Assembly: GCA_937894085.1 (NCBI GenBank)
Contig: CALCSG010000504.1
Coordinates: 1-41,451 of the forward strand
Length of the DNA stretch: 41,451 bases
Reading direction: 5' to 3'
Source of the DNA: an uncultured Gammaproteobacteria bacterium
GTDB lineage: Bacteria > Pseudomonadota > Gammaproteobacteria > GCA-001735895
In this document: positions 9,112-41,451 of the stretch, one piece after another
Numbering within the stretch: the first letter of the stretch is position 1
Layout of the letters: the number at the start of each line of letters is the position of its first letter
The notes under the pieces: generated by a model
The model's input: the letters and a program-made list of their open reading frames with translations, nothing else
Told to the model about the DNA's origin: nothing
Database searches by the model: none
Made by a program: the position numbers and the translations under genes

Positions 9112-9237
9112 TGCAACCTCCTCCGTAAGAAGAATATCTTTTTAAATAAACTTTACATAATATTTTTGTTTATGTTGCCAGGGAAAGCTAAGCAAAATTA
9201 GTTGCTTCCGTTAAAACTCATTCTAAAGGAGATCAGC

Positions 9238-12200: not shown

Positions 12201-12738
12201 TCGCTCTGATTCCAGCCTGAAAATTCAATATCGGCAACCCGCTATTGTTAGCGGCATCCCGGGTGCGGACTATGGCTTGAATACGGCTATTGTTTATAGC
12301 ACGGTCAATCTGGCAATCAATGAACTCGATAATATCGCTGACTTGATGGATGTACCCGACAATGTCTGCGTGACCCGCTTGACCCCGCACTCGGGCGCAG
12401 ATACTGCCGAATCCGTAGATTGTGCAGTAGCTATACCTGAAGCCGACCTGATTCCCGATCCGCTTGAAACTGACACGGATAGCTTTCCTGATCCCGACCC
12501 TGATACAGATACCGGTCCATCCGATCCCGATCCAGCTCCTGACCCTGATCCCGTTTTAGATTCAGATGCAGGTCAGGATCCGGCACCGGAAACCGAAAAC
12601 GGGACTGGTGGTGCCGGCCTGCAACTACTGTTGTGGTCAGCATTACTACTGGTTCTGAAAATCTGTATGAAAACTTTACCACGAAGCTTGCGAATGGCGG
12701 TCACAAAAATTCCCTCAAAAAAGGAGTTGCTGAGATGA
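9238..12738 (+). CDS. Large exported beta-rich protein with acidic Asp-Pro linker and C-terminal hydrophobic anchor
   Basis: About 1166 residues from ATG 9238, chosen because AAAGGAG sits right before it; the frame also opens at 9202. A signal peptide (VVSISLSPPIYALS) starts an exported protein of no family I recognise. The second half (about 600-1060) has loose repeats such as KIDADGEPLWSSS and DGSLYLTGYSG that resemble the blades of secreted beta-propellers. Residues about 1070-1115 are an Asp/Pro/Glu-rich linker. It ends at GTGGAGLQ followed by about 18 hydrophobic residues and a basic tail, which recalls GlyGly-CTERM (rhombosortase) sorting signals, although the tail after the anchor is unusually long. 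Its TGA overlaps the next ATG (ATGA), so translation of the two is probably coupled. First gene of the 9.2-17.4 kb operon. Confidence 0.85.
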   Translation: MKESTAVGKTVTAFSLVVSISLSPPIYALSGCPDANVSDEFTLGNFSLVSTTILSDNQLEVVLQADAVNTQAGSFSSLSVTPRFHERSDLNAVIIQPMTFPPVSPFSTIQGDLANQHLTVKVDADKLDELMLRLSTGIIPVDVTANENVVLEPGVVVQGWEPWMDAFALLPGGQEPAYSPGTSVRFGMINPASTPVSLPAGFVSASNTNCSISPAAGEQWILNDDNSFEWENIPFAWRNLKINSLERIPLVDGTDDCSSSIGATIDAEIPANPLTELVESGSFCSGEEHYIDPPVFTTRTSSFEGDDIPAEVSDSNTQPVHFNDVLIGNLKISGQLQGYVLKPGIELRIRPFAGSDESSVKIRTSIDNKVNMAVTLTAQGQASILDQEIEIGALCFPLPPLNFGPLQIPWTLRLAHHIGVNAELSAGVTTGIEKQFSAGYALEWDDGVFDSEHWGESPPVEFTPPRLPHGLAATASVWSRFTTDLELGSIYPACETGAGPYLDMKLAVGLSMDPANNPRWALGHEAEITAGLEFNIMGIDIGSTVDAELVSFPGSEELTPELDNSTPSERISLNRSAAKQVDTAEDGEKQRWLIAVENKDADYPGGGFERTAVSATHDGGAAVVSYAAITGDNPLLRFDALGQLVWQQEYSNGRQPIAVTALDDDSLAVAGQPSWLAKHSADGTLSWSQDYDFTDASGGSAVCYIEDMTRFDYGTNGSGYLLIGWMHFGVNKPCAARVDDNGIVLWAKTYQREIPLDSVEGYLRGKLYAVNATSDDGFVFAGYEALLTPAAISRPLVMKIDADGEPLWSSSIDLPNVYRSGEFTDISEAEDGSLYLTGYSGAIVTQDGAMLVSHLAADGQSADSALFFPGEVEAENYLTSLAGYSPLDKGLAIESVARGVVITGVLNAHEYGIGEEAWVLRLNDRLGVEWLFSIDGPGDETINAITYAGDGLFASGVSKSLIPIEDGSDNKNSLILAKLPFEGRPGNIRSDSSLKIQYRQPAIVSGIPGADYGLNTAIVYSTVNLAINELDNIADLMDVPDNVCVTRLTPHSGADTAESVDCAVAIPEADLIPDPLETDTDSFPDPDPDTDTGPSDPDPAPDPDPVLDSDAGQDPAPETENGTGGAGLQLLLWSALLLVLKICMKTLPRSLRMAVTKIPSKKELLR

Positions 12739-13871
12739 ATAAATCGAGCGGGATTTTATTTCTGAGTTTACTGGTATCGGCCTGTGGTGGTGGCTCTACA
12801 GAAGACGAACCACCTGTACTGCCAGCATTAACCATCGATAGCCCTGCCCAAAGCGAGGGTGATAGCGGCACAACACAACTGAGCTTCACAGTAAGCCTGG
12901 ATAAGATAGATGATGCTAACGTTAGCATAGACTATGTCACGGCCGATGATAGCGCCAGCGCAGTCAGTGACTATGTCGCACTAAGTGGAAGCCTGACAAT
13001 TCCGGCAGGAGATACTTCGGGCACTATCACTGTCACCATAAACGGCGATACCGAAGTCGAAAGTGATGAATCCTTCATGCTCAATCTTAGCAATATCACT
13101 TCTAATGCTACGCTCGCCACATCAAACGCCACGGCTACTATTTTGAATGATGATGTGGTTGTCATACCACCCACTCCGTCATCTTCGGCACTTAATGATA
13201 CGGGAGTAACCACTTGCAGTGATGATTTTGTTAACGGCCTTGATTGCAATAGTGCTAGCGATGGAACGGATCAGTTTTCCGGGCAGGATGCCGAGCACGG
13301 ACGTGACCTCACCAATAACGCCAGTAGCGATGGCCACGCCGGATTTGTGTTCAGCAAACTCGATAACAACGGCACCCCGCTCGCTGACCAGAGTGTCGAT
13401 TATGCCACCACGCCCTGGCGCTGCGTGCTAGATTTAATTAGCGGTCTGACCTGGGAAGTGAAAGCCGACGACGATGGCTTGCAGGACAAAGACTGGACCT
13501 ACAGCTGGCACAATACCAGCGGGATCAACGATGGTGGCAATACCGGACTCAGTAACGGGGGGCTATGTGTCGATACCAGTAACTGTGATACCCAAAAACT
13601 AATGCTTGCGGTGAATAACGCTCAGCTCTGCGGATTTGACGACTGGCGCCTGCCAACGCGCCGCGAACTGTTATCGATCATGCATTTTGGCGCGAGCGTT
13701 GCGCCTTATATCGACAGCAACTATTTTGTAAATCATGCAGCATTGCCCTACTGGAGTAGCTCACCGGCCACTGACAACAACGTTGCCTATGTAAATTATT
13801 CGGATATTGGCGCGCATACCTCGAGTCGCTCACAGGCCTTTGCCGTGCGCCTGGTACGAGGTGGGGACTGA
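12735..13871 (+). CDS. Lipoprotein with Calx-beta and DUF1566 (Lcl C-terminal-like) domains
   Basis: About 378 residues. The frame is open from 12633, but ATG 12735 is chosen because it has AAGGAG upstream, an ATGA overlap with the preceding stop, and then gives a classic lipoprotein signal, FLSLLVSAC, with Cys at about 18. A low-complexity GGGS tether follows. One Calx-beta domain spans about 35-145 (SEGDSGTTQLSFTVSLD, then GDTEVESDESFMLNL), a calcium-binding fold of surface proteins. The C-terminal half is a DUF1566 module (LISGLTWEVKADDDG, CGFDDWRLPTRRELLSI, YWSSSPA, VRLVRGGD). DUF1566 includes the C-terminal domain of the Legionella adhesin Lcl, so a surface-binding role is plausible. The module is closely related to the end of the next gene product. 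Confidence 0.88.
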   Translation: MNKSSGILFLSLLVSACGGGSTEDEPPVLPALTIDSPAQSEGDSGTTQLSFTVSLDKIDDANVSIDYVTADDSASAVSDYVALSGSLTIPAGDTSGTITVTINGDTEVESDESFMLNLSNITSNATLATSNATATILNDDVVVIPPTPSSSALNDTGVTTCSDDFVNGLDCNSASDGTDQFSGQDAEHGRDLTNNASSDGHAGFVFSKLDNNGTPLADQSVDYATTPWRCVLDLISGLTWEVKADDDGLQDKDWTYSWHNTSGINDGGNTGLSNGGLCVDTSNCDTQKLMLAVNNAQLCGFDDWRLPTRRELLSIMHFGASVAPYIDSNYFVNHAALPYWSSSPATDNNVAYVNYSDIGAHTSSRSQAFAVRLVRGGD

Positions 13872-13873
13872 TC

Positions 13874-16792
13874 ATGAAAACAGCCACGGTGAATTTCATC
13901 AAAAATGGGGATTTGGTCGAGCCTTATTGGGGACAGCTCCCCCAGATACTACTCATATGCCTTTTGATGTTTACCGGCACCTATCCGGCCGACGCAGCTC
14001 AACCGGCACTGGAAGTCTCGGGGTTTTTCGAAATGGACGGCACTACCAGTCTGGATCCTGATCCTGAACACGGGGAATTTTATTTTGGTCCGAATGGAAA
14101 TCCTGATGCCGATTATGAGTTGCCACTTGATGTAACTGCCTCGCCCTGGGAACTTCCTGTTAAGCCTGATTCAGGCATGTGGGTGTACGCCAATAATGAG
14201 GGTCGTGTGCGAACCTATGCTACTACCGGTGCCTATGGAATTGATGATTCTGGTACTGGTTTCGCGTATTCCCAGTTCGGATATGCAAAGATCTTCTGGA
14301 ATGGATATTACATTCGAAGCGATAGCAGCGATCCCAAGTCTACTGTCAATCTAAGCCTGCTGGAGCTCTTTGCAGATAAGCCAGGGCCTGATTTTTTATT
14401 TAACAGGGCCGGTATTCTGACTCCGCCATTTGCAAAGATGAATATCGCGATTACTCTTTGTGGCTACCTTCACAAGGGCGTAGGCGGCGGTGATTTTGAC
14501 TGCGTAAAACTGTATCAACATGAATCACACATAGCAGGAACGTTCGATCACGTGGATTTCCCAATTCAGGTAGTTACTGCTAAGACGTCAAATTTACTAG
14601 GAGATGTCCCCTTAATCAAAACGACAGGAAGCCCAGTGTCCCTGTCGCTCGAACACCCTGTTACAGAAGTGAAAACCGGGTTGGCGGATACCTGGGATAT
14701 TGCTATCGGGGAACATTATAAGATTATATTTGAGCTCGAAGTTGAAGTTGGCCAGGACGCTGACGAAAACATTGCCAAGGCATTATTGGGTGATCCTTTG
14801 GATGCGGATTTAGGTGGCATAACCCTCAATACGACCCACACACGGGTACCCAGCAATATCCACATTTGTAAGCGTGCACTGGACCCCTACCGTTTTGAAG
14901 TGCACAACGATGGCACCGTCACCGATGCGAACACTGGCCTGATGTGGCAACGCTGTCCACTGAACTACACCCTTAACGAGAATGGTACGCCTGCAGATCT
15001 CGGTGATGATCTGTGTACAGTAAATACAATCGTTAGCTTTGATTGGCAATCGGCGCTGCAAAAAGCGTCAAGTGACAGTTTGGCGACCTACACGGATTGG
15101 CAGTTACCCAACGTCAAGCAATTGGAATCTCTGGTCGATTTGAATTGTTATGCGCCAACGATTGATACGCAGTCATTTCCCGCCACGCCAGCCGTCCCTT
15201 TCTGGACATCCACACCGGCAGCGCGCGGTGACCAGGCCTGGCAAGTCAGTTTCGCCAGCGGCGATGTCAGTCCTGACCGCAAGACCGAAACAAACCGTGT
15301 TCGACTGGTGCGTAATAGCGGCACAATCCCCGTGCTACCCACGCCGGCTTTAGTCGCCGGTAATGCGAGTCTCGTTGAAGGCGACGCTGGCAGCAGCCTG
15401 ATGAACTTCAGGATTGAACTATCAAGCCCCTCTAGTTCTGATGTGAGTGTCGAATACGAAACTCAGGAATTTAGCGCGAGCGGGATCGACGATTTTGTCA
15501 ATGCAACAGGCACCTTAACCATCCCCGCTGGAGAACAGGCCGGCACTATAAGCGTAACGGTGAATGGCGATACTTTTGCAGAAGGTAACGAAACTTTCTG
15601 GCTATTTTTGAGTGAGCCTTCGGCGGGTGTTTATCTTGCCAGGGCCGCCTCAATCGGTACTATTTTTGATGATGAACCGACTGTCAGTGTCGCAGCTGCC
15701 ATGCCGCAACTGGTCGAAGGTAATAATACTGGTACGCAGACTTTTGAGTTTGTTGTCAGCCTCGACAAACCGGCCGTAGGCGCGGTCAATGTTGACTACA
15801 CCACGGTTGATAACACAGCTACTGGTGGCGTTGATTATGATGCGGTCAGTGGCACATTGAACTTCAACCCGGGTGAAGACTCGGTATCGATCATGATCGT
15901 TATCCATGGTGACACTCAGCCTGAAAACGACGAAATTTTTGACCTCGTCATCAGCAATGTGATCGGTGGCGCCAGCCTCGACATCAACCCCGCCAGCAGC
16001 AAGGCAATGGCTATCATCATCAATGACGACGCCGCCTCGACTTATCAGGCACTCAATGATAGCGGTGTCACCTATTGTGCCAATGCCGCCGCGACAGGAT
16101 TATCCTGCCCGCAATCTGGGTTTCCACAACAGGATGGCGAGTCTGGTCGCGACGCAACCGCCAACGACGACAGTGACGGAATAGCAGGCTTTTCTTTTAC
16201 CAAACTGGACAGTAATGGCGTGCCGCTGGTCAATCAGGCCGCGATTTATCAATATACTTATTTTCCTGCCGGTCCGGCATACGACATCTGGGACTGTGTG
16301 CAGGACCAGGTGACCGGGTTAGCCTGGGAGATAAAAACCGATGTGATTGCAGATCTGCGTAATTATGACTGGACCTACACCTGGTATAACAGCACAGGCC
16401 TGAATGATGGTGGTAATGCGGGAACAGAAAATGGCGGCGCCTGCGTCGATAGCACGAATTGTGACACGGAGAAATATATTGCAGCCATCAATGCGGCCAG
16501 CCTGTGCGGTTTCAACGACTGGCGCCTGCCGACAGTGGATGAGTTATATACGCTCGCGGTAAGCGCTGCACCCAGTGTCTCAACCAGTCGCGGTCTCGAT
16601 AGCAATTACTTCCCGCATAACTACGCAGTCAATGGCAGCCTGTCACAGGGATATACCTACTGGAGCGCGAACACCGCCGCCAACGTCGCGTTATCGAGCT
16701 GGGCCCTGGAGTTCCAGGCGCCAGATCCGCAAAACATCCAGATTGATAAAGCATCACCGACACCTGTCCGTTTAGTGCGTGGCGGTTCGTGA
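13874..16792 (+). CDS. Large exported protein with two DUF1566 and two Calx-beta domains
   Basis: 972 residues, starting two bases after the previous stop. A long signal peptide (hydrophobic LPQILLICLLMFTGTYPADA) is followed by a unique N-terminal region to about residue 310. Domain order is then DUF1566 number 1 (about 325-490, TGLMWQRCP ... DWQLPNVKQLESLVD ... WTSTPA), Calx-beta 1 (about 495-600), Calx-beta 2 (about 605-720, DYTTVDNTATGGVDYDAVSG) and DUF1566 number 2 (about 735-972, ending VRLVRGGS). DUF1566 number 2 starts with ALNDSGVTYC and QDGESGRDA, matching ALNDTGVTTC and QDAEHGRDL in the preceding lipoprotein. The two genes therefore share a duplicated module. No membrane anchor is visible at the C-terminus; it may be released or held by its partners. 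Confidence 0.88.
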   Translation: MKTATVNFIKNGDLVEPYWGQLPQILLICLLMFTGTYPADAAQPALEVSGFFEMDGTTSLDPDPEHGEFYFGPNGNPDADYELPLDVTASPWELPVKPDSGMWVYANNEGRVRTYATTGAYGIDDSGTGFAYSQFGYAKIFWNGYYIRSDSSDPKSTVNLSLLELFADKPGPDFLFNRAGILTPPFAKMNIAITLCGYLHKGVGGGDFDCVKLYQHESHIAGTFDHVDFPIQVVTAKTSNLLGDVPLIKTTGSPVSLSLEHPVTEVKTGLADTWDIAIGEHYKIIFELEVEVGQDADENIAKALLGDPLDADLGGITLNTTHTRVPSNIHICKRALDPYRFEVHNDGTVTDANTGLMWQRCPLNYTLNENGTPADLGDDLCTVNTIVSFDWQSALQKASSDSLATYTDWQLPNVKQLESLVDLNCYAPTIDTQSFPATPAVPFWTSTPAARGDQAWQVSFASGDVSPDRKTETNRVRLVRNSGTIPVLPTPALVAGNASLVEGDAGSSLMNFRIELSSPSSSDVSVEYETQEFSASGIDDFVNATGTLTIPAGEQAGTISVTVNGDTFAEGNETFWLFLSEPSAGVYLARAASIGTIFDDEPTVSVAAAMPQLVEGNNTGTQTFEFVVSLDKPAVGAVNVDYTTVDNTATGGVDYDAVSGTLNFNPGEDSVSIMIVIHGDTQPENDEIFDLVISNVIGGASLDINPASSKAMAIIINDDAASTYQALNDSGVTYCANAAATGLSCPQSGFPQQDGESGRDATANDDSDGIAGFSFTKLDSNGVPLVNQAAIYQYTYFPAGPAYDIWDCVQDQVTGLAWEIKTDVIADLRNYDWTYTWYNSTGLNDGGNAGTENGGACVDSTNCDTEKYIAAINAASLCGFNDWRLPTVDELYTLAVSAAPSVSTSRGLDSNYFPHNYAVNGSLSQGYTYWSANTAANVALSSWALEFQAPDPQNIQIDKASPTPVRLVRGGS

Positions 16793-29919: not shown

Positions 29920-32900
29920 ATGAGGCCTCAAGGAAAGATGGGCAAATTATTATTGACCGGTGTAAATCATACCAGGGCAGTCATTACCTTATTGGTATTA
30001 TTGACGGTGATTGCCCTCTACTTTCTACCTGGACTGCGCCTTGAAATTACCGCCGAAGGCATGATGGTTAAGGATGACCCTGCAAGACTATTCTACGAGC
30101 GCACTCTGAATTCTTTCGGCTCTGACAATGTCACCATCGTCTATCTTGAGGACGATAATCTGTTTGATGCGCACAAGCTAGGCCTTATTAAAGAGGCGGT
30201 TAACAAGCTCAACAAGATGGTTCTGGTGGAAAAAACCGATAGCCTGTTCAGTATTCGTTATTTGCGCACGATCGATGACTTTACCTATACATCACCATAT
30301 CTTGATTCCATACCGCAGGATAGTGAACAGGCGGCAGTCTTGAAACAGGCCGCCTTAATCAACCCGTTGATCAAAAAGAACCTGTTGTCTGAAGATGGAC
30401 ACGTTATGGCGATCAATGTCCACTTTGCTACAAAGCGTTATTTTAGAGGTTTCGATGAGGAAGTTTCAAGCCAGTTAGAGCAAATTCTCCAACCACTTAA
30501 AGCGGAACTTGGCCGGGTATTCTTCATGGGCGATCCTTATGTAAGAAACGGTATCTCGCAGCGTATTCATGACGATCAGAAGATGATTTTACCTGGAGCT
30601 ATCTTACTCCTTATCATAGCGTTGGCGATCAGTCTGCGACGCATGCAAGCAGCGCTTATTCCCTTACTCACGGCTGGACTCAGCGTGATCTGGATTCTGG
30701 GTCTGATGGCAGCACTCGATATCCCGGTGAATATCATGAGTTCAGTTATCCCTGCGCTTCTGATCATCATTGGCTCAACCGAAGATATCCACCTGCTGTC
30801 AGAGTATCTGAATAGTTATCGTCAGGGTGTTAGTCGAGACCAGGCAATAAAATTAATGTCGGATAATATGGGCATGGCGGTCATACTCACCTTCGTCACC
30901 ACTTATGTTGGCTTCCTGTCAATCGCTCTTAACGACCTAGAATTGATAAAACAATTCGGCATTTTGACCTCTACCGGACTGCTGATAAATTTCTTGATAA
31001 CAGTACTGCTGGTACCTGCTAGTTTAAAACTTTGTGGACGTTTCAGTTCAACTCAAAAAACCATGGACGGAGATCATCGGTATGCCAGGCTTGCCAGCCT
31101 GCTATTAATCATGACCGACAGGTATCGCTATCAGGTCATGGCGGTGTTGCTACTTTCAGTTCTGCTCTGGCTTTATAATGCTCTCGACCTGCGTTTAAAT
31201 AATAATGTGATGGATTATTTTGACGACAATTCTACAATTATCCAACAATCCAGTCTGTTGCATCAGAACCTGTCCGGTATTCAAACCTTATCACTGGTTT
31301 TAACGGGTACATCGGGTACTTTTTTACAGGTGCCATACATTAAAGAATTGTCGTCGATACAGGAACATATCGATGATATGGGTTATTTTGACAAGTCATT
31401 CTCTTTTGCCGATTTCATTGGCGTGGTGCACAGCGGACTGGATGGTGAAAGGCCGGGTGATATTTACTTACCAGACGAGAATGAAATAGTGGAAGGTTAT
31501 ATGGCTTTTCTGGGTCACACGGTGGCCCAGAATTTTGTGTCTTCTGACTATAGTCAGACCAAAATCATCATACGTCATAACATCAGCGATTCTGATAAAC
31601 TTAATCGTGCGGTTGAGGCGATTTATCTATATGTCAATAACACAGTAGAACCAGGGATCGATGTCCAGGTGACCGGCGAAAGTTATCTTAACAGTCGGGC
31701 GATCGATTACATGGTGCGTGGACAGGCGCAATCACTGGTATTGATGTTAGTGGTTATTTTTGTGCTGATGTCGGTTCTTTTCGTAAATAGTCGGGCAGGA
31801 ATCATTGCCGTCATCGCCAACCTGTTCCCTATCATCATTCTATTTGGTGTGATGGGTTTTTTCGGTATCCCGCTGAATACCGGTACCGCTATGGTAGCCA
31901 CTATATCACTGGGCATCTGCGTAGATCATTCGATGCATTTCATGGTGCGCTATCAACGCATGACAAAAATTACCGTATCACGCTTTGATGCACTCGATCA
32001 TACAGTCCGTTTGGAATCGATGCCGATCATGGCAACCGCCCTGTCACTAGCGGTCGGTTTCGCCGCGTTAACGGTGTCAAATTTTCCACCTTTAGCCAAG
32101 TTTGGGCAGTTAAGCGCGCTTGTCATGCTGCTCGCCCTGATCAGTACTTTTATCATCATTCCACTTTTCCTGCGTTATGTTAGTCTGACTTCCGTGTGGG
32201 ACATGCTGAGCCTGGACCTCAAACGTGATGTGGTAAAGACCAGTCCTTTGTTTGCAGACATGTCTAACTGGCAGGCTCGTAAGATAGTTACACTGAGTGA
32301 AATTCTGGTCTACCGGCAGGATGAAGCCATCCTGATGCAGGACGATTCGGTTGAGCACCTGTTTATGCTGCTAAGCGGTAGTGTTGAAATCTGGCGTAGA
32401 GAGATTGACGGCTCCACCTATATGCTCGAAGGTATAGAGCCGGGTTGCGTTTTTGGTGCTCTGTCAGGGTTGAAACAAAAACAATGTCATGCCGATATAG
32501 TGGCCATCATACCTTCAACCATCATGCGATTACGTGCCGAGTCTATTCATAATATCGGCCGGGGCTCCCCCCGTCTGGCCGTAAAATTGCTGCAGAATCT
32601 GAACAATATTGCCAACAACCTGATCAATTTGTCAGCCTCTACACCCACACCGTTTCGTGACCAGCGCACAGGTGCTTATAACGCTACGTTGTTCCTGGAA
32701 ATGTTGAGTCACAATATTGATAGGGCTAATCGGTATGATAACCCCTTGAGCATAATTGTGATCGACATTGATGGGCTTCAGCGTGAAACCAGGCCAAATG
32801 ACAATATTCAGTTTCAGAAAGTACAGGACCTTATCGCAGACATTATCCTACAGCACATTCGGAAACCGGACATTTTTGGCCTGTGGCCGGATAGCAGTTA

Positions 32901-33147
32901 CTGGATAGCCCTGACCAATACAGATAAGACAGGTGCTGAAACAATTTGCAGTCGACTGAGTCTTGACTTGTCTCAAAATCCACTATTAAAGCAGGAAAAT
33001 TCAAGGGTTAACCTGATAAAAACAGAACTTAAAGATGGAGAGTTTATCGATGGCTTCCTCATACGAATAAACGACCTGAGGGGGACAGCGCAGGAAAATC
33101 CTACGGTCAAACTGGAGTCTTTAAAAACGCTGCCAGAACAAGATTAA
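29920..33147 (+). CDS. RND/MMPL-type exporter fused to a cyclic-nucleotide-binding domain and a degenerate GGDEF domain
   Basis: 1075 residues. Residues 18-37 are the first TM helix; a large extracytoplasmic loop, a TM cluster (about 220-370), another TM (about 400-420), a second loop (about 425-600) and a second TM cluster (about 600-757) give the duplicated RND/sterol-sensing layout. It is most like single-chain MMPL lipid or hopanoid exporters. Residues about 773-906 form a CRP-type nucleotide-binding domain (VEHLFMLLSGSVEIWRRE, GIEPGCVFGALSGL). Residues about 912-1046 match a GGDEF fold: DQRTGAYNATLFLEMLSHNI and PLSIIVIDIDGLQ fit, but the active-site motif is replaced by PDSSYW. It is therefore unlikely to make cyclic di-GMP and probably only senses or binds. 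Start: ATG 29920 or 29938; neither has an ideal ribosome-binding site. Confidence 0.9.
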   Translation: MRPQGKMGKLLLTGVNHTRAVITLLVLLTVIALYFLPGLRLEITAEGMMVKDDPARLFYERTLNSFGSDNVTIVYLEDDNLFDAHKLGLIKEAVNKLNKMVLVEKTDSLFSIRYLRTIDDFTYTSPYLDSIPQDSEQAAVLKQAALINPLIKKNLLSEDGHVMAINVHFATKRYFRGFDEEVSSQLEQILQPLKAELGRVFFMGDPYVRNGISQRIHDDQKMILPGAILLLIIALAISLRRMQAALIPLLTAGLSVIWILGLMAALDIPVNIMSSVIPALLIIIGSTEDIHLLSEYLNSYRQGVSRDQAIKLMSDNMGMAVILTFVTTYVGFLSIALNDLELIKQFGILTSTGLLINFLITVLLVPASLKLCGRFSSTQKTMDGDHRYARLASLLLIMTDRYRYQVMAVLLLSVLLWLYNALDLRLNNNVMDYFDDNSTIIQQSSLLHQNLSGIQTLSLVLTGTSGTFLQVPYIKELSSIQEHIDDMGYFDKSFSFADFIGVVHSGLDGERPGDIYLPDENEIVEGYMAFLGHTVAQNFVSSDYSQTKIIIRHNISDSDKLNRAVEAIYLYVNNTVEPGIDVQVTGESYLNSRAIDYMVRGQAQSLVLMLVVIFVLMSVLFVNSRAGIIAVIANLFPIIILFGVMGFFGIPLNTGTAMVATISLGICVDHSMHFMVRYQRMTKITVSRFDALDHTVRLESMPIMATALSLAVGFAALTVSNFPPLAKFGQLSALVMLLALISTFIIIPLFLRYVSLTSVWDMLSLDLKRDVVKTSPLFADMSNWQARKIVTLSEILVYRQDEAILMQDDSVEHLFMLLSGSVEIWRREIDGSTYMLEGIEPGCVFGALSGLKQKQCHADIVAIIPSTIMRLRAESIHNIGRGSPRLAVKLLQNLNNIANNLINLSASTPTPFRDQRTGAYNATLFLEMLSHNIDRANRYDNPLSIIVIDIDGLQRETRPNDNIQFQKVQDLIADIILQHIRKPDIFGLWPDSSYWIALTNTDKTGAETICSRLSLDLSQNPLLKQENSRVNLIKTELKDGEFIDGFLIRINDLRGTAQENPTVKLESLKTLPEQD

Positions 33148-33326: not shown

Positions 33327-36300
33327 TTACTGAAAAACATACGCAGCTCCCGAATCTGTCGCACCTGTACCGAACTGATCACCATTGATACCGGTGGCAG
33401 CACTATCTTCGCCATAAGCTCCACTGACCAGAGTGTCACCCGACAGGCCTAACGAAGTTCCAAAACGATCATTGGCTTCCGCATTCGATGCCTTGATATA
33501 GGATAAAAGGTTCCAGTTAGAACCACTGCGAGCAAAGTAATACACTGCACCGGCAGATAAGGCATTGTTATTGTAGCTGCCAACACTGCTGGTAGTATCA
33601 CCATCTTCCAGCGTGGCTGCCACCGCCAGTGAATCCAATTCCAGATTGACATTCTGCCCAAACTGGTCACCGGCTTCCGCATTTGGCGCCTTGATATAAG
33701 CCTGCTGTGTCCACAGGCCGGAAGTTCGGGTAAACACATACACGGCACCCGACCCGGGGGCACTATTATTGTAAGACCCCTGGCTACTAAGTACATCACC
33801 ATCCTCACCATAAGCGCCGATGGCCAGTGTATCACCGGACAAGGCAACCGATTCTCCAAAGTAATCCAGAAGATCTGCATTTTCTGCTTTTAGATACGCC
33901 TGTTGTGTCCACACATCGACGCTACGGGTAAATACATAAACCGCACCGGCAAGTGGTGCATTTTCATTGTAAGCACCCTCTATACTAGTCGCATCTCCAG
34001 CTTCAAAAATAGCACCAACAGCTAGCGTATCACCATCGATATCCAGCGATCGTCCAAACTGATCGGATGCCTGAACATTGGATGCCTTCAGCCTCGCCTG
34101 CTGATTCCAGCTGCTGCCACTGCGAGTGAATACATACACCGCCCCGGAAGAACTTCCTCCATCGTCCTCTCCAACCGCTCCTACCGCCAGGGTATTTCCA
34201 TCCAGCGCCAGGTGTTCACCAAACATATCCTCTGTCTGTACCGTATCGGCCTTGATATAAGCCTGCTGAGTCCAGATTCCGGAACTACGAGTAAAGATAT
34301 AGGCAGCACCTGCATTCACCGCAAGATCGTTATAGGCAGACACGCTACTATTCAAATCACCGTCTTCACCCGGTGCCCCGACAGCCAGCGTATCGCCGTC
34401 GAGTGCCACAAATTTGCCAAATTCATCACCCGACTGGGCATTCGATGCCTTCAGATAAGCCTGCTGCGTCCACACTCCACTGGTTCGGGTGAATACATAA
34501 ACTGCTCCTGCATACAGCGCATCATCGTTATATGATCCGTCAGCACTGTTCACATCACCACTTTCCTGGTAGGCACCGACAACCAGGGTGTCTCCGGAAA
34601 TGGCAATTGCTTTACCAAACTGATCATCCGCTCCGGTATTCGAAGCCTTGATATAAGCCTGCTGCGCGTAGGAAGCTGCATTTTGCCTGCTAATCGTTAT
34701 CGAATAGGTCTGTGTCGAGCTATCTTCAGCGGTCACTTCAATTTCAATCAGATTAGGCCCTTCGCTGAGCGCAATTGAGTCACTGGGTAATCCCGAATCC
34801 AGCGGATTTCCATTTAGCTTCAAGGTCGCTGCCGGATCTGAAGCTGTAGCGGTTAGCGTCGTACTGGTCACGGTATAGTTGACCGAGGCGGTATAATTTA
34901 GTTGACTGATTTGAAACAATTGATCCAGCGTTCCGGCTGAAATCGTCAGCGCAGTCAAATCAGCATTAGAAGCTAAACTAAGCGCCGGGGAGATAGTGAC
35001 TGTAGACAAGCTGACTGGCACGACTGCATTCACCACATTAGACAGCTCTACATGAAAACTTTCGCTGCCTTCTGAGAAATCACTGTCTGCAAGCACAGGC
35101 ACAGCAATACTTACAACCTGCTGCCCGGCCTGAATAACCAGCGAATCACTCATTTCCGTAAAATCGATATCAGGAGTAGCCGTATCAATGCCCGTAGCCG
35201 TTACCACATAACTAAAGCTCACATCCTGATCTTGAGCCTTGTCCAGTTGAAAGCTGATTAACAGGTTTTGTGTTTGCCCTGGATAAGGTTCACTGATGAT
35301 AGCACTAGTGCTTATCTGTAGTAATGCGGGTTGAAAACAATCACTTCCTTCTGCAACCGGGCAGTCATCCACGCCATCATAGAGCCCATCCTCATCCGTA
35401 TCAGAAGCCCAGGGGTAGGTTGCTGTGACAAATGGTTGATCGACTTCAATTCGGTTATCAATGCTATCACCATCCGTATCAATGCCATAACCATTAGTAT
35501 CGACCGTCTGCTCAAGCCCAGGTTCAGTCTGCAAACGACTCAAACCGTCCGTAAACAGCGCAAAACGACCCAGGTAACGCAGTTTTTCCATGTCAGCATT
35601 GCCGGATGCCAAAGCCTGTTGTTGCAGCCACTGGCTGATATCCAGTACGTCAATAGTACTACTAGCCTGCAGAGTCTGTAACCAGTTGTAAGTCGGGGTT
35701 AATGCACCGGTTTCCAGCATGTTTTTCAGGTCTTCATAAACCAGCCAGAGATTTCTTCCATTTTCGCGATTTGACAGGTTTTGTTGAAGCTGATGCATAA
35801 TATCCTGATGTGCCAACTGCATTTGATCCCAGGAGAACAGTCCAGTACCACCCTGTAAACCTATTTCATAAGCCAACAGCAGTTGTAGTGCTTCTACATA
35901 GAGATTTTGATCAAGACTCAGTGCAGGTGTTTGATCAACCACCAGATTAAGTCCAAGAAAGGTTATATACTGCTGTTTCCAGTCTTCGGCCGTTAACCAG
36001 CTATCATCAGCAATAAACCGGGCAGGAGTCAGATCGGCAGAAGATGGTAATAATGTTCGATAATGCCAGCGCCTGACAGTTGAGATTTCATTTGCTGTAC
36101 CGGGATTCAACTGAACAGTTTCATCGGCAATAACATCCATTACCTGTGTAAGAGATGCAGCAACTCGAAACTCAGCTATCTGATCTTGCGCCAACCTGCT
36201 CGTAAAAGTCGATTGTTTAAGGCTGTCCTCAACAGATCCAGCATCGCAGTCGACTACAGGCTCGACATCGCTGTCGACAACAACAGCCCATGCCAACTGA

Positions 36301-37379
36301 GCATCTAACAGTAGAGAATCACTGTCAAAGCGTGTATTGCCTGTCAGCGTATAACTTCTGGCAGAAGCATTCCAGATCAGAGTATCTAATGCCGGTTGCT
36401 TACTTGCTGAAACTTGATATTCAACCTCGTAAAGCCGTTGAACTGCAGGGTGTTCCTTAAAGGATAATAATGTATCACGGTATGACTGGGTACCCTGCTC
36501 TGGAGCAGGATAATCAATATCCATGGTTATCAGATTATTTACCTTATCCGCAGCACAAGTTCCGCGCCACCTTTCATCAACATCACTCCAGCCATCGTCA
36601 TCAGTATCCACTGGTAGTTCATTTTTATTGGAGTTGGCAGAACGCAGCCATTGATCAAAATCAGCCCAGCCATCTCCATTGCTATCGGTTTGCCAGTCAT
36701 CCTGCAAAGGATTCAGTCCAACAGCCATCTCCACCAGGTCGGGCAATCCATCCAGATCAGTATCGCGTCGTTCACCATCCGGATGGTTAAGCGTACTAAT
36801 GCTGTAACTGCGATTCATGACACTGATTTCAGTATTCGTATTATCCAGTAATTCGACATGCACAAGATGGGTGCCATCTTTCACCAGAAAAAAATGATTC
36901 TCGAAATAACCCTCTATCGATTCAGTTTCGGCATTTAAAACATTTGAACTGAATGCCCCTTCACCCACTTTCCAGAGTAGTGTCACCGAGCCATAGGTGT
37001 CGATTACACTGGCATCGACATACATCACTACTTCTATAGTTTCATTGTATACACCAGCAACTGGCTCCACCTGTAACGGTTCACCACCAGCAGTAGCCAA
37101 CGGACTCGCATCACCCAACCCTTGCAGACTGAGTGGTGACAACTGACTATTCATTGCAGTCGAACTGGCTGGTATTTCATTAATGAGCACAGTATCTTCG
37201 GATCCCGGTGGCAGGGTATACACCGTGTAATTAAACTCAGTCAGCCAGTTCCCATAGCTATAACTGCTGATATCACCATTGGCTTCAAACAACCAGAAAT
37301 TCGCATTTGTCTGGTTAAACAGGGCACTGCCAACAGCCTGTTGAGTGATAAATACTATGAGTAACAGCCAGTTTTTCAT
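33327..37379 (-). CDS. Giant exported protein: TSP3-like motifs, Calx-beta, cadherin-like domain and seven FG-GAP repeats
   Basis: 1350 residues. A signal peptide (WLLLIVFITQQAVGSA) marks export. TSP3/EF-like calcium motifs occur near 205 (DTDLDGLPDLVEM), 257 (DTDDDGWSDVDERW), 633 (DTDGDSIDNRIEVD) and 663 (SDTDEDGLYDGVDDC). Then come a Calx-beta domain (about 695-795), a cadherin-like beta-sandwich (about 801-897; LTALTISAGTL ... YSITISR) and seven consecutive repeats (898-1350). Each repeat has QQAYIKASN..., D.FG, a DTLAVGA-type strand and AGAVYVFTR, matching integrin-like FG-GAP propeller blades; seven would close one propeller. It probably acts at the cell surface or outside the cell in calcium-dependent adhesion. 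No C-terminal anchor or sorting motif is evident. Last gene of the operon, 11 bases after the preceding frame. Confidence 0.88.
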   Translation of the reverse strand: MKNWLLLIVFITQQAVGSALFNQTNANFWLFEANGDISSYSYGNWLTEFNYTVYTLPPGSEDTVLINEIPASSTAMNSQLSPLSLQGLGDASPLATAGGEPLQVEPVAGVYNETIEVVMYVDASVIDTYGSVTLLWKVGEGAFSSNVLNAETESIEGYFENHFFLVKDGTHLVHVELLDNTNTEISVMNRSYSISTLNHPDGERRDTDLDGLPDLVEMAVGLNPLQDDWQTDSNGDGWADFDQWLRSANSNKNELPVDTDDDGWSDVDERWRGTCAADKVNNLITMDIDYPAPEQGTQSYRDTLLSFKEHPAVQRLYEVEYQVSASKQPALDTLIWNASARSYTLTGNTRFDSDSLLLDAQLAWAVVVDSDVEPVVDCDAGSVEDSLKQSTFTSRLAQDQIAEFRVAASLTQVMDVIADETVQLNPGTANEISTVRRWHYRTLLPSSADLTPARFIADDSWLTAEDWKQQYITFLGLNLVVDQTPALSLDQNLYVEALQLLLAYEIGLQGGTGLFSWDQMQLAHQDIMHQLQQNLSNRENGRNLWLVYEDLKNMLETGALTPTYNWLQTLQASSTIDVLDISQWLQQQALASGNADMEKLRYLGRFALFTDGLSRLQTEPGLEQTVDTNGYGIDTDGDSIDNRIEVDQPFVTATYPWASDTDEDGLYDGVDDCPVAEGSDCFQPALLQISTSAIISEPYPGQTQNLLISFQLDKAQDQDVSFSYVVTATGIDTATPDIDFTEMSDSLVIQAGQQVVSIAVPVLADSDFSEGSESFHVELSNVVNAVVPVSLSTVTISPALSLASNADLTALTISAGTLDQLFQISQLNYTASVNYTVTSTTLTATASDPAATLKLNGNPLDSGLPSDSIALSEGPNLIEIEVTAEDSSTQTYSITISRQNAASYAQQAYIKASNTGADDQFGKAIAISGDTLVVGAYQESGDVNSADGSYNDDALYAGAVYVFTRTSGVWTQQAYLKASNAQSGDEFGKFVALDGDTLAVGAPGEDGDLNSSVSAYNDLAVNAGAAYIFTRSSGIWTQQAYIKADTVQTEDMFGEHLALDGNTLAVGAVGEDDGGSSSGAVYVFTRSGSSWNQQARLKASNVQASDQFGRSLDIDGDTLAVGAIFEAGDATSIEGAYNENAPLAGAVYVFTRSVDVWTQQAYLKAENADLLDYFGESVALSGDTLAIGAYGEDGDVLSSQGSYNNSAPGSGAVYVFTRTSGLWTQQAYIKAPNAEAGDQFGQNVNLELDSLAVAATLEDGDTTSSVGSYNNNALSAGAVYYFARSGSNWNLLSYIKASNAEANDRFGTSLGLSGDTLVSGAYGEDSAATGINGDQFGTGATDSGAAYVFQ

Positions 37380-37390
37380 GTCAATACTCC

Positions 37391-37816
37391 TTATTCATTG
37401 ACTGGAGTCGTCGAAACCCAGTCGGACAGATGCCAGGATTTAATGGCGTGTTGCGGCTCACTAAAAGTCACCGTCTGGTAGCGGTAGTCGTATCCCTGGA
37501 TATAAGGATAGCGATCGACAAAAGCGAGATGCCAGGGAATGGCCTCTTTGTCTAACGAATATTCATGGCGGTACATCGCAAAATAGGGGTCAGATAAAAT
37601 ACTAGCTGAAATTTTAATTCCGCTTCTTTCCCAAAAAATGGACTTAATCAGTGAACTCACCTGAACCCAGGATCCGGTGCTACCCTCAGGTGATCGAGCC
37701 TGACGATAAACCAGAAATGGTTTAATAACCGAACTGTCAATCATGTGCCGACCAGAGTCCCTGCATTCAAAATCCACGGCGAGTAGATGGTGCCGGTCCG
37801 GGTTCAGCTCAGACAC
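37391..37816 (-). CDS. Out-of-frame C-terminal part of the surface protein encoded upstream
   Basis: 141 residues from GTG 37816. The frame overlaps the end of the 939-residue gene and lacks its own ribosome-binding site. Read further back past the start it gives AGHCFNYEEVSELNPDRHHL directly after the G9 tract (37843-37851), so it looks like the true C-terminus of the neighbour shifted by one base. Ten or seven G would fuse them. The content (YPYIQGYDYRYQTV, KSWHLSDWVSTTPVNE) shows no known domain. If the tract count is real, this segment is made only by cells whose tract has slipped; if it is a sequencing error, it is simply the end of the larger protein. Confidence 0.6.
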   Translation of the reverse strand: MSELNPDRHHLLAVDFECRDSGRHMIDSSVIKPFLVYRQARSPEGSTGSWVQVSSLIKSIFWERSGIKISASILSDPYFAMYRHEYSLDKEAIPWHLAFVDRYPYIQGYDYRYQTVTFSEPQHAIKSWHLSDWVSTTPVNE

Positions 37817-40623
37817 TTCCTCATAATTAAAACAATGCCCTGCCCCCCCCCGTCATCAGCCGCTTTAAATAGATTATTAAAGGTTGAAAAACGAATCAAC
37901 AAGGGTAAATTTTCGGGAGCTTCCCCCTGCAACGAAGAAACATAGTCAACAGCTCGCTCAACGTTCAGAGGTACTCCTTCATCTAGTGACCTAATGGTAG
38001 GCCAGGGCAGGTACTCAGTGTCATTGATACCATTCTCGCGCCGGAAACGGCACAGCTTACCACTCCAGTCTGATTGTTTAGCAGCCTGATTATTACCCGC
38101 CAACCCCACCGCCATCGCACGTATGCACCACTTGTCACGCGCGCCCAGCAGGGTATGTACCGAAGCCATTTCTTCGAATTCGAAACCCGGTTGCTGGTTA
38201 TTCGCTGGGAATGATAAAACCTGAGTATCTTCATCACCCACATCCGAGGTAATTTCAATCAACGTGGCAGCTGTGGGTTGCAATGGAGAGCGCCACTTAA
38301 ACTCAAGATGATCACTGAATGCATCCAGCGAAATAATTTGCGGAGGGCTCGGAGCCGTCAAATCTGTCTGAATCACGCTACAGGGTATGTGTACCGCTTC
38401 AGAGCTGTTATTACTGCTATCCCTTGTCAATGCATAACCACAAACCTCACCACCTAGAAACTCTACTTGCAGCTCAAACGGTGTGTCAGTTCCACAGGAA
38501 GTCGCTTCTTTTTTCTGCTGACCGGCGATGTTTTTGTAATACTCGATACAACCATCGGTTGAAGTCAGGGTTAAGGTTTCGTTACCGGCTCCAAAACTAC
38601 CATCCGTCACGACTTGTTCATCAGCGCATTGGGTTTCATACAACTCCCAGTTACCCGATTTGCACAAATTCATTGTTTCAGGAACCTCTACTTCACAATA
38701 AACCGGTAAATTACCTTTTGCAAAGCCGCTATCCTCGGTATATTGCCCCGGATATATCAATTGACGTGGTTTTCCTGTTCCCCAGAAGTCACTGATCCCA
38801 CCTGACTCTTCAGTACACAGTTCAGAGCTTGACAGGCCAAACTGACTCATAAAAAGTGGATTGGTCTGAGACTCACTGTCCGCCAGAGAAAGTGTGTCAT
38901 ATTTTCCTATTGCATCACTAAATTCCCATTCTAATTGCCCCACATTTAGCTCATGTAGCTTGCAGCAGGCCGTGGAGCTATGGCGCACATGTTCATAAGT
39001 TGGCGGCGCTGGAGGAGTGGTATCAGGATAACGCACCCGAAAAGGACCCACAGGGTAACTGAACTTGCCATCATCGGTACCACTAGCCAGCATATAGTGA
39101 TAAAACTCATCTTCAACCAGGTGATTACCACTATCCCGCACACTGATGCGAATGCGTTCTCCGTTTCCAAGCGCTAAATCCGTCATGTCCACAACAGCAT
39201 AACTGGTAGAACCGTCTGGTTGGCTGGTTGAGTCACATTGCAAGCCTTCCTCAGTTTCATCACGATCCGACACACCATCACCGTCACTATCCTTAAACCC
39301 GAGAGCCTGCGTCGCATCGTCAAAACGATACAGGCGGTATTTAGTGACATCGATTCGAGTGACCGAGGGAGAGCCGCAGGTTTTACTACTATCCGCATAT
39401 TCCAGTAAACCTGTGCTGGCAACCTGTAGTGGATTACACACTACCCGATCACTGTATTTTAACAGGTAATTATCCAGGCTAACCTGATCCCAGCTTAATA
39501 CCAGGCCGGGCTGCTCTCCCCCGCGAAAAGAAATTTCAAAGTCCCACGGAGCCTGTGGAGAAAGCCGGTTTGGAATTTGCACCACCAGTGCTGCGGTTTC
39601 ACCATAATGACCACTGAAATCCCGTCCCACCACATAGTAAGCCCGTCGGTCACCCGGTAGCAGCCCGGCTTTTTGTAATTCATTGGCAGTTTCGATAAAT
39701 TCAAAGCTGGTCGGATCACCATCACCATCCAGCGTTAACAATTGCCGATTTACTCGCTGTAGGCCATTAAAGACTACTTCGCCTCGTCCGTCATGGTTCA
39801 AGTTAGATGCGTCATAAGCTAGATATCTTACCGGAGCCTCTAATATATTGTCCTCCAGATTTTGAGTACTGCGATACAGTTCATAACCCGCCAACTGAGC
39901 GTTGTTAGCCACTCGATCGGTGGTCGAGCCACCGGGTGGCAACCAGTCCAATGTTACGGTGTAATGATCCTGGGATGAGTCACAACTGCTGACCAGTTGT
40001 TTTAAATCCTGCACAGGCATCAATTGGTGATGATTGCCCGTATTCACTGTCGCCTGGCCCAGCTTGACCTGCTCTTGCGTATCCAGTTGAATCGCATACA
40101 GAGTATAAACATACTCTGTATCTGGGCTAACCGCTGTGTCCAGATAGGCACGTTTTCGCGCCCGCGCAATATTAAAGTTCTGCCTTGAAGCGAGAAAACT
40201 CCAATAATCGTTATCCGGGTTGGCTAATCGATTATGTAATACAGTAGCAAACTGATCTGGAGTAAAATCATGACCTTCGGCCAGTTCAATCTCTTTTAGT
40301 AGAGTCAGGGTATGCATCAGGCGCTGTTGTTGAGCAGGCTCATGATAAATACGGTTAATTTCGTCAATCGACGGTAAATAATTTATGTCCCATTGTTCCA
40401 GTATCACTCCATTGCGTTCCAGGCGAAGCTCTTCAATATCGACCGGTAACTCACCTTCCAGAACATCCCAACGCAGATAAACCGCCAGACTCGATTGAAC
40501 AGATTTCGCTGCAGCTGCAGTGTTAGCAGGCTTCGCGAGAAAGTAAAACTGTCCTTCGGACTGAACCAGGCTGGAAAACAGTCCACTGACCAGCAATAAC
40601 AAAAACATTAGACTATATTTCAT
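37804..40623 (-). CDS. Large exported FN3-like surface protein ending at a G9 tract frameshift
   Basis: 939 residues as the frame stands. A signal peptide (MFLLLLVSGLFSSLVQSEG) starts an exported protein made of fibronectin-III-like stretches (TLDWLPPGGSTTDRVANNAQ, then LAGYELYRS; later LVLSWDQVSLDNYLLKYSDR) with one calcium-type motif, DSDGDGVSDRDETEEG. Many Cys residues (CCKLHEL, CTEESGG, CNPLQ) suggest disulfides outside the cytoplasm. After KAADD the codons are GGG GGG GGG, from nine G in a row, and the frame ends 12 codons later at TGA. Changing the tract to ten or seven G continues it into 37391-37816 and gives about 1077 residues. It is the second gene of a three-gene operon, 17 bases after the preceding stop. 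Confidence 0.8.
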   Translation of the reverse strand: MKYSLMFLLLLVSGLFSSLVQSEGQFYFLAKPANTAAAAKSVQSSLAVYLRWDVLEGELPVDIEELRLERNGVILEQWDINYLPSIDEINRIYHEPAQQQRLMHTLTLLKEIELAEGHDFTPDQFATVLHNRLANPDNDYWSFLASRQNFNIARARKRAYLDTAVSPDTEYVYTLYAIQLDTQEQVKLGQATVNTGNHHQLMPVQDLKQLVSSCDSSQDHYTVTLDWLPPGGSTTDRVANNAQLAGYELYRSTQNLEDNILEAPVRYLAYDASNLNHDGRGEVVFNGLQRVNRQLLTLDGDGDPTSFEFIETANELQKAGLLPGDRRAYYVVGRDFSGHYGETAALVVQIPNRLSPQAPWDFEISFRGGEQPGLVLSWDQVSLDNYLLKYSDRVVCNPLQVASTGLLEYADSSKTCGSPSVTRIDVTKYRLYRFDDATQALGFKDSDGDGVSDRDETEEGLQCDSTSQPDGSTSYAVVDMTDLALGNGERIRISVRDSGNHLVEDEFYHYMLASGTDDGKFSYPVGPFRVRYPDTTPPAPPTYEHVRHSSTACCKLHELNVGQLEWEFSDAIGKYDTLSLADSESQTNPLFMSQFGLSSSELCTEESGGISDFWGTGKPRQLIYPGQYTEDSGFAKGNLPVYCEVEVPETMNLCKSGNWELYETQCADEQVVTDGSFGAGNETLTLTSTDGCIEYYKNIAGQQKKEATSCGTDTPFELQVEFLGGEVCGYALTRDSSNNSSEAVHIPCSVIQTDLTAPSPPQIISLDAFSDHLEFKWRSPLQPTAATLIEITSDVGDEDTQVLSFPANNQQPGFEFEEMASVHTLLGARDKWCIRAMAVGLAGNNQAAKQSDWSGKLCRFRRENGINDTEYLPWPTIRSLDEGVPLNVERAVDYVSSLQGEAPENLPLLIRFSTFNNLFKAADDGGGQGIVLIMRKCLS

Positions 40624-40640
40624 TTTTCAGGCTCCCATTC

Positions 40641-41451
40641 CTAATGCAGTACGCTCGGTAGTCCCGGAACATAGGACCAGTCTCCATTTTCATAGCTCAC
40701 GCCGGTCTTAAAATCACCGGTTCCACACCAGCGGTCTTTACGCGAACGTCCCACATCGGTCCAGGTCCATCGGTCGCAGTCGGCACCTGCGCCGGCAATG
40801 ACAAACGCTTCACCGGCAAAATAAGGTTTACCATTGATATCGATTGCGCCCACCGTATTCACCTGACCCCGTACCGAACCGACACAGGCTACAGAACCCA
40901 GTGCTGCGCCACCCAGAATGCCACCGACCTGTGCCAACGGTTCCAGCGTGATCCAGCTACCTGCACTACCGCGAAAACCGATCTGCAAAGCACAACCAAA
41001 ATCCAGTACCGGTATCGGAGCACTCACTTCACCGCGTAAATAAAGTCCGGTAAATGGCGAAGGCACATCTGTACCGAAGGGCAGTAAGTGTGCTGACTGA
41101 GGATCAATTTCAGAGACTCTTGTGTCATCGCAGGTGCGTCCAAAAAACGCACTCATATCCATCGCCATATCGCTGAAAGATCCACCTCCACCAGCGCCTA
41201 TGTAAACTTCTTCCAGCCCTAGCGCTGCCGTAAAATTGAAGCGTTCCATGCTAAAACCGGCATATTCCACTGGCTCTGAAATGCCCAGTCCGCCATATAC
41301 CGAAACCGGCTGATAAGCCAGAATATCGCCTTTGGCCAGAATAAATCCCAGTTCTATATAATCAAGAGTGGTGCTGTCACCAAACAGACCGGCCGATACA
41401 TTTTTTGCCCTGATATTGACATCGAAACTGTCTTCTCCCTGTGCGTTACAG
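40641..41451 (-). CDS. Partial gene for an exported glycine-rich protein (N-terminus outside window)
   Basis: About 269 residues are visible. The frame stays open to the window edge, the first readable residues being CNAQGEDSFDVNIRAKNV, so the true start lies outside. GTG 41270 inside it is not a credible start. The sequence is beta-rich and glycine-rich (EEVYIGAGGGGSFSDMAMD, GGILGGAALGSVACVGSVRG) with several Cys (CDD, CALQI, CDRW, CGTGD), as in exported disulfide-bonded proteins. The end WSYVPGLPSVLH is followed 17 bases later by the next gene. I recognise no family. The calm order of three large exported proteins suggests they form one surface assembly. Confidence 0.75.
   Translation of the reverse strand, partial: CNAQGEDSFDVNIRAKNVSAGLFGDSTTLDYIELGFILAKGDILAYQPVSVYGGLGISEPVEYAGFSMERFNFTAALGLEEVYIGAGGGGSFSDMAMDMSAFFGRTCDDTRVSEIDPQSAHLLPFGTDVPSPFTGLYLRGEVSAPIPVLDFGCALQIGFRGSAGSWITLEPLAQVGGILGGAALGSVACVGSVRGQVNTVGAIDINGKPYFAGEAFVIAGAGADCDRWTWTDVGRSRKDRWCGTGDFKTGVSYENGDWSYVPGLPSVLH

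Follow-up and report, generated by a model that had tools for sequence, protein, structure and literature searches.

A gene split at a nine-G tract is one of at least ten broken at G:C runs in an uncultured gammaproteobacterial genome whose mutS reads broken

At least ten genes of the source genome are split at G:C runs, and its mutS reads broken too; one of them is the gene at 37391-40623 of the window, by which we mean the whole stretch of 41,451 nucleotides analysed here. The source draft genome (G000) comprises 6.02 Mb in 567 contigs, and the window is the entire contig C504. The explanation that we favour, and to which we give an even chance, is a natural mutS-deficient lineage in which the tract slips and switching is a by-product.

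The features of the window on which the argument rests are as follows.

37843 to 37851, minus strand: run of nine G in the sense direction, where the reading frame is lost (sequence and frame analysis)
37804 to 40623, minus strand: frame A, 939 aa with a signal-peptide-like start, made of 926 ancestral N-terminal residues and 12 out-of-frame ones
37391 to 37852, minus strand: second frame of 153 codons, encoding the conserved C-terminal portion of that protein (homologues and coding score)
33327 to 37379, minus strand: downstream partner, 1350 aa, with FG-GAP repeats and a Cadherin-like domain (Calx-beta below the curated cut-off)
40641 to 41451, minus strand: C-terminal portion of the upstream partner, truncated where the contig stops; the upstream genes at the five homologues end alike

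Direct inspection of the plus strand at 37843-37851 gave exactly nine C, in agreement with the initial annotation, and this tract is the sole G/C run of at least 7 within the window. Frame A stops 12 codons past the tract, and the second frame is open from 37852 at the tract to its stop at 37391; the two are open together for only ~45 bases, starting at the tract, and downstream of it codon usage and coding score prefer the second frame. The length of the tract sets the frame of the gene, a feature of poly-G contingency loci, and the earlier arithmetic, by which ten or seven G would restore one frame, is correct modulo 3. The split gene is present once at such identity in the assembly. The FG-GAP gene begins 11 bases past the stop of the second frame, a distance that had also been given correctly, and the break may have a polar effect on it.

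Both parts matched the same five full-length homologues, and all five carry them in a single frame; therefore, frame A and the second frame are one gene truly split in the assembly, with the second frame, as had been proposed, forming the natural C-terminus. The homologues are listed below.

L033: same genus as the source genome
L034: paralogue within the source genome itself
L035: uncultured gammaproteobacterial MAG
L036: Thalassolituus MAG
L037: Sulfurimonadaceae MAG

A sixth relative is partial (G218; L039/L041) and was excluded from the count of five. Frame A is 43% identical to L035 (query 5-925) and 39% to L033 (query 2-926), and the second frame, which matched all five homologues, 51% and 49%, respectively. 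The second part is as well conserved as the rest of the protein, and the window gene has no additional lesion or loss of similarity. With no decay of the C-terminal part, the break would have to be recent, switchable or an artefact. The truncated product would be without ~150 conserved C-terminal residues. The outcome that the initial annotation had named as speaking against itself, namely relatives ending the protein alike and no homologue over both parts, is not what we found, as the homologues cover both. At the site of the tract, a G/C run of 6 or more was found in none of the five homologues, including the genome's own paralogue; the L035 gene has a C6, but away from that site.

The same two partner genes flank the gene in all five homologues, the likeness of the partners being judged by eye from their ends and starts. 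This three-gene block (33327-41451 of the window, and L033-L037) is probably a cell-surface one; it encodes a large secreted protein, the split protein of ~1,100 aa and an FG-GAP/thrombospondin-type protein, and it recurs in gammaproteobacterial MAGs and one Sulfurimonadaceae MAG. For its first two genes, neither Pfam nor NCBIfam offers a family of note. The gene family is rare, being present in 2 of 369 genomes of the class and 2 of 40 relatives, the source genome counted in each. The frame-A protein has no Pfam match, nothing significant was found in Pfam or NCBIfam for the gene and its homologue, a PDB sequence search gave one weak, chance-like match only, and a plasmid search gave none. 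The AlphaFold model of the intact homologue L035, built on a four-row alignment, has a mean pLDDT of 42.

A run of nine is not improbable by itself in the source genome, which contains 46 G7, 30 G8 and 25 G9 exact runs, 5 G10 runs and, at the end of a contig, a single G18. Its G9/G7 ratio is 0.54, whereas none of the 29 other genomes scanned with identical patterns exceeds 0.21 (ratios computed by hand). The G7/G8/G9 counts of relatives fall more steeply (44/13/8 in G005, 32/4/0 in G014), and from base composition chance would be expected to lower the count ~4.5-fold per base added to a run. High densities of G8/G9 runs were also seen in G027, where mutS is intact, and in G031, and G026 has no mutS match at 99% completeness yet few long G runs.

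We scored a run as passing or switching according to whether a long frame passes it or switches there, with 80 codons on each side. Fifty-five of the 61 runs of eight or more G in the source genome were examined, with six G8 runs left out; 16 look frame-breaking, 4 are passed, and 35 lie near gene ends or outside genes. For a conservative count we retained the 10 of the 16 in which Pfam, PDB or homologues tie the two frames into one protein, namely:

Window gene: break at the nine-G tract
L002, RnfD-like: break at a sense-strand C run, with a shift of two bases
L011, YfiR-like: break at a G:C run
L012, DyP peroxidase-like: break at a G:C run
L016, P450: break at a G:C run
L029, PTS enzyme I: break at a sense-strand C run
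L042, TraG-like: break at a G:C run
L051, PAS sensor kinase: break at a G:C run
L052, Lnb/DUF7840: break at a G:C run
L062, AAA_14/DUF4143: break at a G:C run

AAA_14 and DUF4143 usually share one protein; a PDB search with the L062 pieces gave no match. Five of the dropped cases (L005, L014, L019, L049 and L072) have nothing tying the two frames into one protein, and L043 was rejected because its 5'-nucleotidase domain is complete. By a simple tally, the ten supported breaks span metabolism, regulation, conjugation and envelope. Phase variation, as suggested by the initial annotation, therefore stands as a possible behaviour of the tract but not as a special property of the window gene, at least ten genes being split at G:C runs. 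The PAS sensor-kinase gene shifts frame at two G runs, a G8 and a G7 (L051 and L123; C255, ~32212 and 33078).

Shorter runs, runs of the other bases and other genomes were scored in the same way. Among 30 of the 46 G7 runs of the source genome, 3 switch and 10 are passed; among 30 of its 633 A8 runs, 1 switches and 10 are passed, and the lone switching one proved to be two unrelated genes. In seven same-genus genomes, 40 G8/G9 runs (all 29 G9 runs and 11 of the 13 G8 runs of G005, the other 39 G8 runs of G001-G007 being left out) gave 1 switch and 12 passes. Fisher tests gave P 6e-5 for the source genome (16/4) against the genus (1/12), P 0.0013 for the conservative count (10/4) against the genus, and P 8e-6 for 10/4 against 0/20 A/T runs, where it should be kept in mind that runs of one genome are not strictly independent. 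Inside homology-supported genes of the source genome, all 55 A/T runs of 7-9 are in frame.

The background of frame changes is low. Across 833 kb of the source genome, 171 genes (154 kb) were aligned to relatives' ORFs and only 2 frame changes were found, one in the window gene and one in what we read as a degenerate transposase; this rules out a generally noisy assembly. Among 87 genes in smaller loci, changes were found in mutS, in the sensor kinase (two overlapping loci) and in a transporter (two). The latter gene (L110, 2590-3008 of C81), which we take to be NhaD-like from its sequence, shifts frame twice, near a T8 run and outside any long run. In relatives, frame changes numbered 3 in 187 genes of G005 (all in one locus), 0 in 58 of G001, 1 in 38 of G004 and 0 in 11 of G007. 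Frameshifts are thus concentrated in homopolymers, at G:C above A:T, as expected of a mutator, and breaks at any base or at random, as expected of assembly error, were not seen, only G:C runs being affected.

The mutS profile was recovered from the source genome in pieces, with residues 85-329 in one frame of C431, 328-839 in another frame of that contig, and residues 1-92 at the end of C303. By comparison, mutS is full-length, in a single frame and over the cut-off in seven same-family relatives (G001-G005, G007 and G008); in G006 we found a piece only, at a contig end. The junction in the source genome is one base short and outside any long run, the remaining mutS is ~80% identical to that of relatives with no other lesion, and mutL is intact. 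Disruption of mutS, a mark of mutators, is seen for the assembly only. Because mutS spans two contig ends (L182 and L183; C431 and C303) that overlap by ~26 bases with one mismatch, the region around it may be mis-assembled. Breaks that cross functions, together with a mutS that reads broken, point to a genome-wide cause, either lost mismatch repair or an assembly error specific to G runs. The initial annotation had offered slippage and homopolymer error as the two candidates, which was the right pair.

The direction of change was estimated in three of the broken genes. Judged by the spacing of homologues with solved structures, the RnfD-like gene would have a run of 6, where 8 is observed, and PTS enzyme I a run of 7, where 8 is observed; for the P450, the spacing, read from alignment coordinates, fits a run shorter than the observed 9. 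As the homologue spacing is shorter in each, the runs look expanded in all three genes checked. The modulo-3 classes agree with growth from ~7 in many cases, each with an alternative, which makes this agreement no proof.

Several published signatures resemble this one. In mismatch-repair-deficient P. aeruginosa, G:C runs accounted for 104 of 108 indels, insertions outnumbered deletions 3.32-fold, rates levelled off from 7 bases, and one 9-base run had a rate of ~0.13 per generation (PMC4702332). Deletion of mutS in two Vibrio species raised indel rates 102-fold and 142-fold, mainly as single bases in homopolymers, according to the cited part of PMC5854121, and in a natural P. aeruginosa lineage 7 of 7 mutS/mutL hypermutators had independently frameshifted one 7xG run in an outer-membrane receptor gene, as given in a section of PMC3764201. 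The source genome shows a signature of the same kind as that published for mismatch-repair loss in Pseudomonas. As far as the cited portions of PMC3764201 and PMC4702332 go, the likeness extends to G:C-run frameshifts, insertion bias, runs of ~6-9, a damaged mutS and an envelope gene among those hit; the difference is that for those hypermutators there are isolates, reads, parental strains and measured rates, whereas here the phenotype is inferred from one draft genome.

On the reading that we favour, the window gene is one ancestral ORF in the three-gene, probably cell-surface block. A frameshift in mutS would have removed mismatch repair from the lineage, and slippage at G:C runs of ~7 or more, biased toward insertion, would then go unrepaired, so that such runs would grow and lose frame genome-wide. 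In the sequenced population the nine-G tract would have slipped out of frame, truncating the protein at residue 939. If the lineage is a mutator, the tract would often slip back as well, giving a fast on/off switch that arises as a by-product and not through selection. If mutS was lost and unrepaired G:C runs then expanded, this alone accounts for the tract in the window, its base specificity, the breaks elsewhere, the excess of long runs and the low background. The split gene, its intact homologues, the G:C-specific breaks and a mutS in two frames are seen in the assemblies; we infer that the cells themselves carry this broken mutS and these tract lengths, that the loss of mutS is what caused the breaks, and that the changes are reversible.

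The alternative that survives best is consensus or assembly error at long G:C runs, in which the gene is intact, the G count is wrong here and elsewhere, and mutS is mis-assembled. The draft is in 567 pieces with mutS spanning contig ends, and the share of broken genes is similar to the 0.32-1.02% of genes with homopolymer errors that a passage of PMC3277595 gives for Illumina metagenome contigs, also single-base-type frame errors at runs in draft contigs. However, the same passage describes Illumina errors without a pronounced base pattern and 454 errors as A/T-biased, whereas here only G:C runs are affected and all 55 A/T runs are in frame. Same-genus drafts keep their G8/G9 genes in frame by 12 to 1, and neither the genome-wide excess of G8-G9 over G7 nor the two-base shift of L002 resembles single-base miscalls. 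Other points speak against a mutator. Everything rests on a single draft assembly and its consensus sequence, and broken metabolic genes (RnfD-like, PTS enzyme I), which also favour assembly error, would be surprising as the majority genotype of a living strain. In G026 and G027, the number of long runs does not follow the state of mutS. The overall frequency of frameshifts is not unusual against the figures cited from PMC3277595, only the restriction to G:C being so, and slips at the G5 of P. aeruginosa mucA are usually deletions, not insertions, according to PMC2781719. Finally, for four tracts near contig ends other than that of the window we found no second contig with a different tract length and hence no second allele, which again favours assembly error. 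Owing to these points we put the mutS-deficient lineage no higher than an even chance and regard assembly error as a possible, though doubtful, explanation.

Tracts lie within 150 bp of contig ends more often than expected (5 of 55 against 1.45, P 0.014). We take one of the five, the G18, for an artefact, and another is on C510, which ends in a multi-copy repeat. As no partner contigs with another length were found, this clustering was not used as a sign of mixed lengths.

Campylobacter and Neisseria have poly-G contingency loci, and the initial annotation likened the tract to a classic locus of this kind in an exported-protein gene. In the strict form of that reading, the locus is a dedicated one whose tract selection keeps as an on/off switch under normal repair. 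The likeness is real in that a run of about nine G lies out of frame in the gene of a large exported protein, and the conserved C-terminus indicates that the intact form is useful now or was recently. In contrast to those loci, a tract maintained in orthologues is not what we see (none of the five homologues has six or more G/C in a row at that position), surface genes are not enriched as far as seen, the G-run breaks strike unrelated functions, mutS reads broken and a genome-wide cause is likely. We therefore rejected a dedicated locus as the first choice and consider it unlikely.

Equally unlikely, in our estimate, are fixed pseudogenes, that is, ordinary frameshift losses under relaxed selection with working repair. 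The genome is large (6.0 Mb against 2.5-4.5 Mb for same-genus drafts) and includes the degenerate transposase and the transporter-like gene with two frame changes, but frame changes outside G:C runs are few, and neither the window gene nor mutS has other lesions or has lost similarity. Programmed frameshifting or transcriptional slippage, by which a stable gene would yield a short and a full-length protein, fits the ~45-base overlap at the tract and the conservation of both parts, but homologues without the tract need no shift and breaks also occur at sense-strand C runs (L002, L029), which makes it very improbable.

Natural mutators have been reported, in the literature that we searched, from isolates and from patients' metagenomes, the latter including hypermutators found by metagenomics (PMC8407408); in this limited search we found no mutator recognised from G:C-run expansion in one MAG. 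If loss of mutS is the true cause, we would have here a natural mismatch-repair mutator from outside any infection, and the frame status of genes at G:C versus A:T runs combined with mutS/mutL integrity would make a cheap screen for mutators. The full claim is that dozens of expanded G:C runs act as fast reversible switches on unrelated genes, the window gene among them, in a gammaproteobacterium that is uncultured, probably free-living and by nature a mutS-deficient mutator, and that mutators could then be recognised from one metagenome assembly by expanded G:C runs together with a broken mutS; we hold it at somewhat short of even. If it is false, frame breaks at G runs in draft genomes can mimic phase variation.

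Other features of the window were observed. A candidate further break at 12549-12738 was rejected because the second ORF has a lipoprotein-like signal of its own at its start. The region 9202-16792 encodes a protein of 1178 aa with a Gly-rich, hydrophobic and basic tail resembling a sorting signal, followed by two Calx-beta/Lcl_C proteins. At 29920-33147, an MMPL/RND-type transporter, a cyclic-nucleotide-binding domain and a GGDEF domain are joined in an unusual fusion.
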